A stretch of DNA of 64,000 nt from Castellaniella denitrificans. GTDB lineage: Bacteria; Pseudomonadota; Gammaproteobacteria; Burkholderiales; Burkholderiaceae_B. Below, in pieces: positions 4,321 to 4,866 of this stretch (positions are counted from its first letter, which is position 1; every line of letters begins with the position of its first letter). A model generated the notes under the pieces. The model saw nothing but the letters and a program-made list of their open reading frames with translations. It did not search any database and was not told where the DNA came from. A program made the position numbers and the translations under genes. The stretch covers positions 1-64,000 of the forward strand of contig NZ_JAPWHE010000003.1 in NCBI RefSeq assembly GCF_027214045.1, written 5' to 3'.

Positions 4321-4720
4321 GGGGCAGATCGGGCGATCGCGGTGCCGTCAGGCATCGAGGAAGGTCCGGACTCCATCGGGCGCGATAGCGGCTAACGGCC
4401 GTCCGGCGATCCTTTCGGGGAGAGCCGAGGACCAGGGCCACAGAGACGAGTCTGCCGCGGGGGTGAGCCGCAAGGCGCACACCGGTACGGCCATCTCCGT
4501 ACCGTCCGTCCGGTTTGTCCGGGCGGTCCGCGGCAGGGTGAAACGCGGCAACCTCTATCGGGAGCAACATCAAATAGGCATGCGCCGGCTTCGTGCCGAC
4601 AGGGCGGCCCGTCCGAGCATGCGGGTAGATGGCTAGAGCGGTCCAGCAATGGCCCGCCCAGAGGAATGATCGCCCGCCGGGGCAACCCGGCGTACAGAAT
4701 CCGGCCTATAGATCTGTTCC
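4321..4720 (+). ncRNA. rnpB: RNase P RNA, bacterial class A (rnpB)
   Basis: Catalytic RNA that removes 5' leaders from pre-tRNAs. Conserved tracts occur in order: GAGGAAGGUCCGGACUCC (CR-I, from 4357), ACAGAGACGAGUC, AGGGUGAAAC, GGAGCAA-N4-AAAUAGG, GGGUAGAUGGCU, AGAGGAAUGAUCGCCC and ACAGAAUCCGGCCUAUAG (CR-V, 4694-4711). The ends pair as P1 (4321-4330 with 4711-4720, including G-U pairs). The P4 helix differs from the usual sequence: CR-I reads AAG-GUCC rather than AAA-GUCC, and CR-V reads CCUAU rather than CUUAU. The two changes restore pairing (G4363 with C4706). The specificity domain is compact: the usual GGUAAGAGC tract after GGGUGAAA is absent, which I believe is typical of Burkholderiales. 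Ends are assigned from P1 pairing. Confidence 0.95.
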
Positions 4721-4866
4721 GCCTTCTTCATAGGGAATTGTGCGCATTCGGCCGCCGTGCCGGCTGTGATACCCTGAATCATCATTTCGAACCGACGGCC
4801 CGCGGCGCGGATGCGTGCCGGGTACGCCGGCCGGATTCCTTCATGGAAATCCAGCAGGAGACATCG

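Follow-up and report, generated by a model that had tools for sequence, protein, structure and literature searches.

The window, a stretch of 64,000 nucleotides from Castellaniella denitrificans, carries the gene rnpB, which encodes a class A RNase P RNA (Table 1). Its RF00010 score lies above the gathering score of 100 bits along the full model, and it is the single match in the genome, which is rated 100% complete. Of the 26 open reading frames listed near rnpB, seven were compared with Pfam, and the neighbouring genes found in this way are ordinary: they encode an amidohydrolase-family protein, a two-domain ABC protein, and a set resembling a branched-chain amino acid transporter together with a periplasmic binding protein. 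In the RF00010 alignment, 43 model positions, which we take to be the P13/P14 region, are reduced to one in the window RNA; a short spacer here is common among its relatives, and hence it was not treated as defining. The P12 region of the window RNA is longer than that of the model.

Table 1. Positions of rnpB and of the conserved P4 elements in the window
Feature	Position	Strand	Evidence
rnpB, class A RNase P RNA	4321..4724	+	RF00010 match at 197.2 bits, spanning model positions 1-367 of 367
CR-I, including the 5' strand of P4	4357..4369	+	Direct reading, GAGGAAGGTCCGG; RF00010 alignment
P4 5' strand letters: A4362 G4363 G4364 (U4365) C4366 C4367 G4368 G4369, then A4370		+	Direct reading
G where E. 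coli has A67	4363	+	Direct reading and RF00010 alignment
Bulged U of P4, retained (U69 in E. coli)	4365	+	Direct reading and RF00010 alignment
A at position 74, partner U4700: second covariant P4 pair	4370	+	Direct reading and RF00010 alignment
CR-V, including the 3' strand of P4 (4700-4707)	4694..4709	+	Direct reading, RF00010 alignment and pattern search
C at position 359, partner G4363	4706	+	Direct reading and RF00010 alignment

Reading the letters directly, we found GAGGAAGGUCCGG in CR-I at 4357-4369 and CCGGCCTAT in CR-V at 4701-4709, the latter containing CCGGCCUAU. The preliminary description had given the letters and coordinates of both regions, and of G4363 and C4706, correctly. Within 4357-4374 and 4694-4708, four letters depart from those of RF00010: A to G at 4363, U to C at 4706, G to A at 4370, and C to U at 4700. 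The first two replace the consensus A-U at E. coli positions 67 and 359 of the P4 helix by G-C, and the change is compensatory, as the preliminary description had proposed, with G4363 able to pair with C4706 in an RNA that looks intact along its full-length match. The bulged U is likewise kept, and Watson-Crick pairing is possible at all eight P4 pairs. At the far end of the helix, A4370-U4700 (E. coli 74/353) replaces the G-C of the model, a change that the preliminary description had not mentioned. For the 3' strand of P4 we take the E. coli numbers to be 353-360. The numbers 67, 68 and 69 on the 5' strand agree with those in the available parts of PMC12710915 and PMC9433436.

Two unexpected letters in a conserved helix could come from a sequencing error or from a decayed copy of rnpB, an explanation for which we found no support. 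Two matched changes, in the sole copy of a complete genome and within a full-length match to the model, speak against it, and the identical pair in the rnpB of nine other genomes of the genus refutes it, in keeping with the earlier argument against an error; we give this explanation practically no weight. The nearest rows to the window rnpB in a tree are members of the genus, the closest with 99% identity over 336 columns, and the 67/359 pair of rnpB in Castellaniella, other Alcaligenaceae and Oxalobacteraceae is the same as in the window, with no notable difference seen.

We compared rnpB in 41 genomes, all with an RF00010 match: 25 from the family, with the genus represented by ten including the window, and 16 others of the order. 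The results showed that G67-C359 was present in all ten Castellaniella genomes and in 23 of the 25 family genomes, the remaining two having A-U (G021) and C-G (G023), while the 16 other genomes of the order had G-C in three cases and A-U in 13. In a wider draw from the family, the CR-I pattern matched in 144 of 151 genomes, with G at position 67 in 124, A in 12, U in five and C in three. The same pattern matched in 135 of 200 genomes drawn from the phylum, where the letter was A in 132, G in two and C in one. Eleven of the 65 genomes missed in the phylum draw were inspected, and ten of them match RF00010, three with C67 (G073, G116 and G311) and seven with A67, and one was without a match. No RF00010 match was found in genomes G320 and G234. 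The pair had been described as almost universally A-U; this agrees with the A67 of the phylum sample, but not with the genus and family, where G-C is usual and the supposed exception was not borne out.

A pattern scan of the contigs of named genomes for G67 gave at least 117 stretches. Both P4 strands were present in at least 104 of them, with C359 in all 104; of the other 13 stretches listed, six run off the end of the sequence and seven look unlike rnpB. Among the 102 distinct G-C loci listed from named genomes, at least 28 belong to Oxalobacteraceae, at least 16 to Alcaligenaceae, at least 15 to Nocardioidaceae and at least 14 to Streptosporangiaceae. G-C was also found in named Actinomycetota, in three Candidatus Bipolaricaulota among the matches listed, and in 0.8 Mb genomes of the window's family (L155 and L210). 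G-C is seldom met in the phylum draw, is usual among the relatives of the window, and extends to several phyla; the possibility, raised in the preliminary description, that it is common in bacteria holds in part, for several groups. G-C at 67/359 is an ordinary, lineage-typical covariation: striking when set beside the E. coli consensus, it is what close relatives usually have. It is also already on record, the RNA family being long known and the G-C letters standing in many public genome records. In a literature search of largely freely available papers, we found no statement on the natural letters at 67/359 or on the frequency of G-C there in the accessible parts of the papers, including PMC12710915, PMC9433436, PMC7657543, PMC4919922, PMC11221534 and PMC4264200. 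In one 0.9 Mb genome of the window's family (G336), the rnpB stretch (L211) consists partly of N, and its CR-V is intact with C359.

The least biased of the samples was a draw of 100 genomes of the order, in which the two P4 strands were searched separately in the same genomes. Both strands were found in 80 genomes, and all 80 were paired at 67/359 (A-U 70, G-C 9, C-G 1). For 14 of the other 20, the RNA was fetched through RF00010, giving A-U in 12, C-G in one (G073) and C.U in one (G116). The last six have A67 and stand outside the 94 genomes in which position 359 was read, for which the totals were A-U 82, G-C 9, C-G 2 and C.U 1. These pairing counts were not fitted to the helix, because the structure line of RF00010 does not hold P4 as pairs.

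We collected 202 distinct RNAs that contain both strands of P4, a set biased by the partly deliberate search for G67 and for a pyrimidine at 67, and found G-C in 139, A-U in 41, C.U in 11, C-G in six and U.U in five. Neither G.U nor A.C occurs at 67/359 in the 202 RNAs, although the absence of G.U may partly reflect sampling, as G67 was the selection criterion for every named locus and genomes with a pyrimidine were sought deliberately. Left out of the set were the 13 G67 loci without both P4 strands, L211 and L212, which have no complete P4, and L186, which has A-U at 67/359 and, with four departures from the P4 patterns, falls outside the cut. Pairs 66/360, 68/358, 70/357 and 72/355 and U69 are invariant in the 202 RNAs, partly by choice of search since the patterns fix most letters and allow few departures, and 67/359 varies. 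The pair 74/353 is A-U or G-C in all 202. On a tree of these RNAs built without the P4 strands, at least 15 changes are required to account for the five pair types, seven of them between A-U and G-C alone and five between paired and mismatched states; the tree is a quick one, from a single RNA gene and with long branches, and the counts of changes are only a guide.

A search by pattern for C or U at position 67 matched 16 of 399 genomes of the order, two of which do not look like rnpB. The other 14 comprise nine C.U RNAs, all from one family of the same order (f49), and five C-G RNAs, three in genus g253, one in f49 and one in the window's family. Eleven genomes of f49 were sampled; nine have C67.U359, one has C-G, and one (G602) did not match the pattern, and C67.U359 is present in seven of the nine sampled genera. 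In the window's family, all six sampled genomes of genus g209 are mismatched, four with U.U and two with C.U, and U.U was found in one of six genomes of genus g194, the other five having A67. In a draw from the class, the pattern matched in three of 369 genomes, two being those of f49 and one not rnpB by its look. Three matches to the pattern (L224, L228 and L229) were rejected as rnpB, having no CR-V at the right distance. The mismatched loci with an intact-looking rnpB are L173, L187 and L217-L223 in f49 and L188-L194 in the window's family. Three mismatched RNAs scored with RF00010 gave 209.0 to 228.9 bits. Because other RNAs of RF00010 have C-G, C.U or U.U at 67/359, A-U there is not a defining feature of class A. 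A model duplex with a mismatch at 67/359 opens at that pair; the mismatch may be kept within the helix, or residue 67 may be bulged with A66 and A65 pairing with U359 and U360.

The phosphate at A67 had been linked to metal binding in the preliminary description, and the parts of the published work available to us agree. In PMC9433436 a metal ion, Ca2+, contacts the A67 and G68 phosphates as well as O4 of U69, PMC4919922 gives identical metal sites in T. maritima numbers, and PMC12710915 models Mg2+ among phosphates that include that of A67. Since the ligands named for the metal are for the most part backbone phosphates (67 and 68) together with O4 of U69, a G-C pair can serve at this position, and exchanging one Watson-Crick pair for another should disturb the metal site little. 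Our preferred reading, with a probability of about 0.92, is that the class A RNase P RNA of the window is normal and encoded once in the genome, that in its lineage A67-U359 became G67-C359 by a compensatory change that kept the pair, and that this RNA works as elsewhere. The new pair would have been retained once it arose, with P4 binding its catalytic metals chiefly via phosphates 67 and 68 and O4 of the bulged U. The helix at 67/359 would then be needed more for its shape than for its letters, so that G-C would serve as well as A-U; the enzyme is presumed active, and the swap neutral or mildly stabilising. The letters are not free everywhere, because the phylum sample has A67 almost throughout (132 of 135). 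The available part of the review PMC4919922 credits residues A48, A49 and A50 of T. maritima, the last of which corresponds to E. coli A67, with helping the metal site through their bases as well as their backbone, which slightly lowers our confidence in the preferred reading; the base data quoted there concern A48 and A49.

An alternative, which we consider improbable, is that G-C at 67/359 represents a special adaptation altering the metal binding or the rate of this RNase P. The pair adjoins the metal ligands (PMC12710915, PMC9433436 and PMC4919922, in the parts available), bases there are also credited with a role in the metal site (PMC4919922, likewise), only two of the 135 genomes matched in the phylum sample have G67, and replacing A-U by G-C stabilises a model P4 duplex by about 2.4 kcal/mol. 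However, G-C is common to lineages of several phyla and to the 0.8 Mb genomes of the window's family, and relatives have C-G, C.U and U.U at the same place. A link between G-C and the loss of P13/P14 was also rejected, as the spacer lengths of the two pair types overlap, short and long spacers being found with each.

The series of mismatches is more interesting than the G-C pair itself, although it is a note, not a headline. C.U and U.U occur at 67/359 yet G.U and A.C are unseen in the 202 RNAs, so selection may act against the backbone shift of a wobble pair. We put forward, tentatively and at somewhat under even odds, that 67/359 need not pair, that selection may oppose such a shift rather than favour pairing, and that A-U possibly passed to C-G by way of a pyrimidine mismatch. 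No part of RNase P has been studied more than P4, and the natural A-U, G-C, C-G, C.U and U.U versions next to its metal site form a ready set for asking what 67/359 does.

According to the available part of PMC4264200, the RNase P RNA of the Paulinella chromatophore has a natural C-U at the last P4 pair, shared by only four other sequences of 5800, and is active in vitro. Changing this C-U to A-U, G-U or G-C lowered activity, and a C-C version retained much activity at higher RNA concentration, so that odd end pairs of P4 can be functional (PMC4264200, as far as available). Because the accessible text of PMC4264200 calls G-C preferred there, the pair probably lies at the opposite end of the helix, 74/353, in which case it differs from the mismatch of the relatives described here. 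Wobble does occur elsewhere in P4: at 71/356 the 202 RNAs have C-G in 194, G-C in four, U-A in two and U.G in two. The flip from C-G to G-C at 71/356, in L017, L170 and L175 (family f3) and in L167 (family f22), is an unusual compensatory change inside both CR-I and CR-V.
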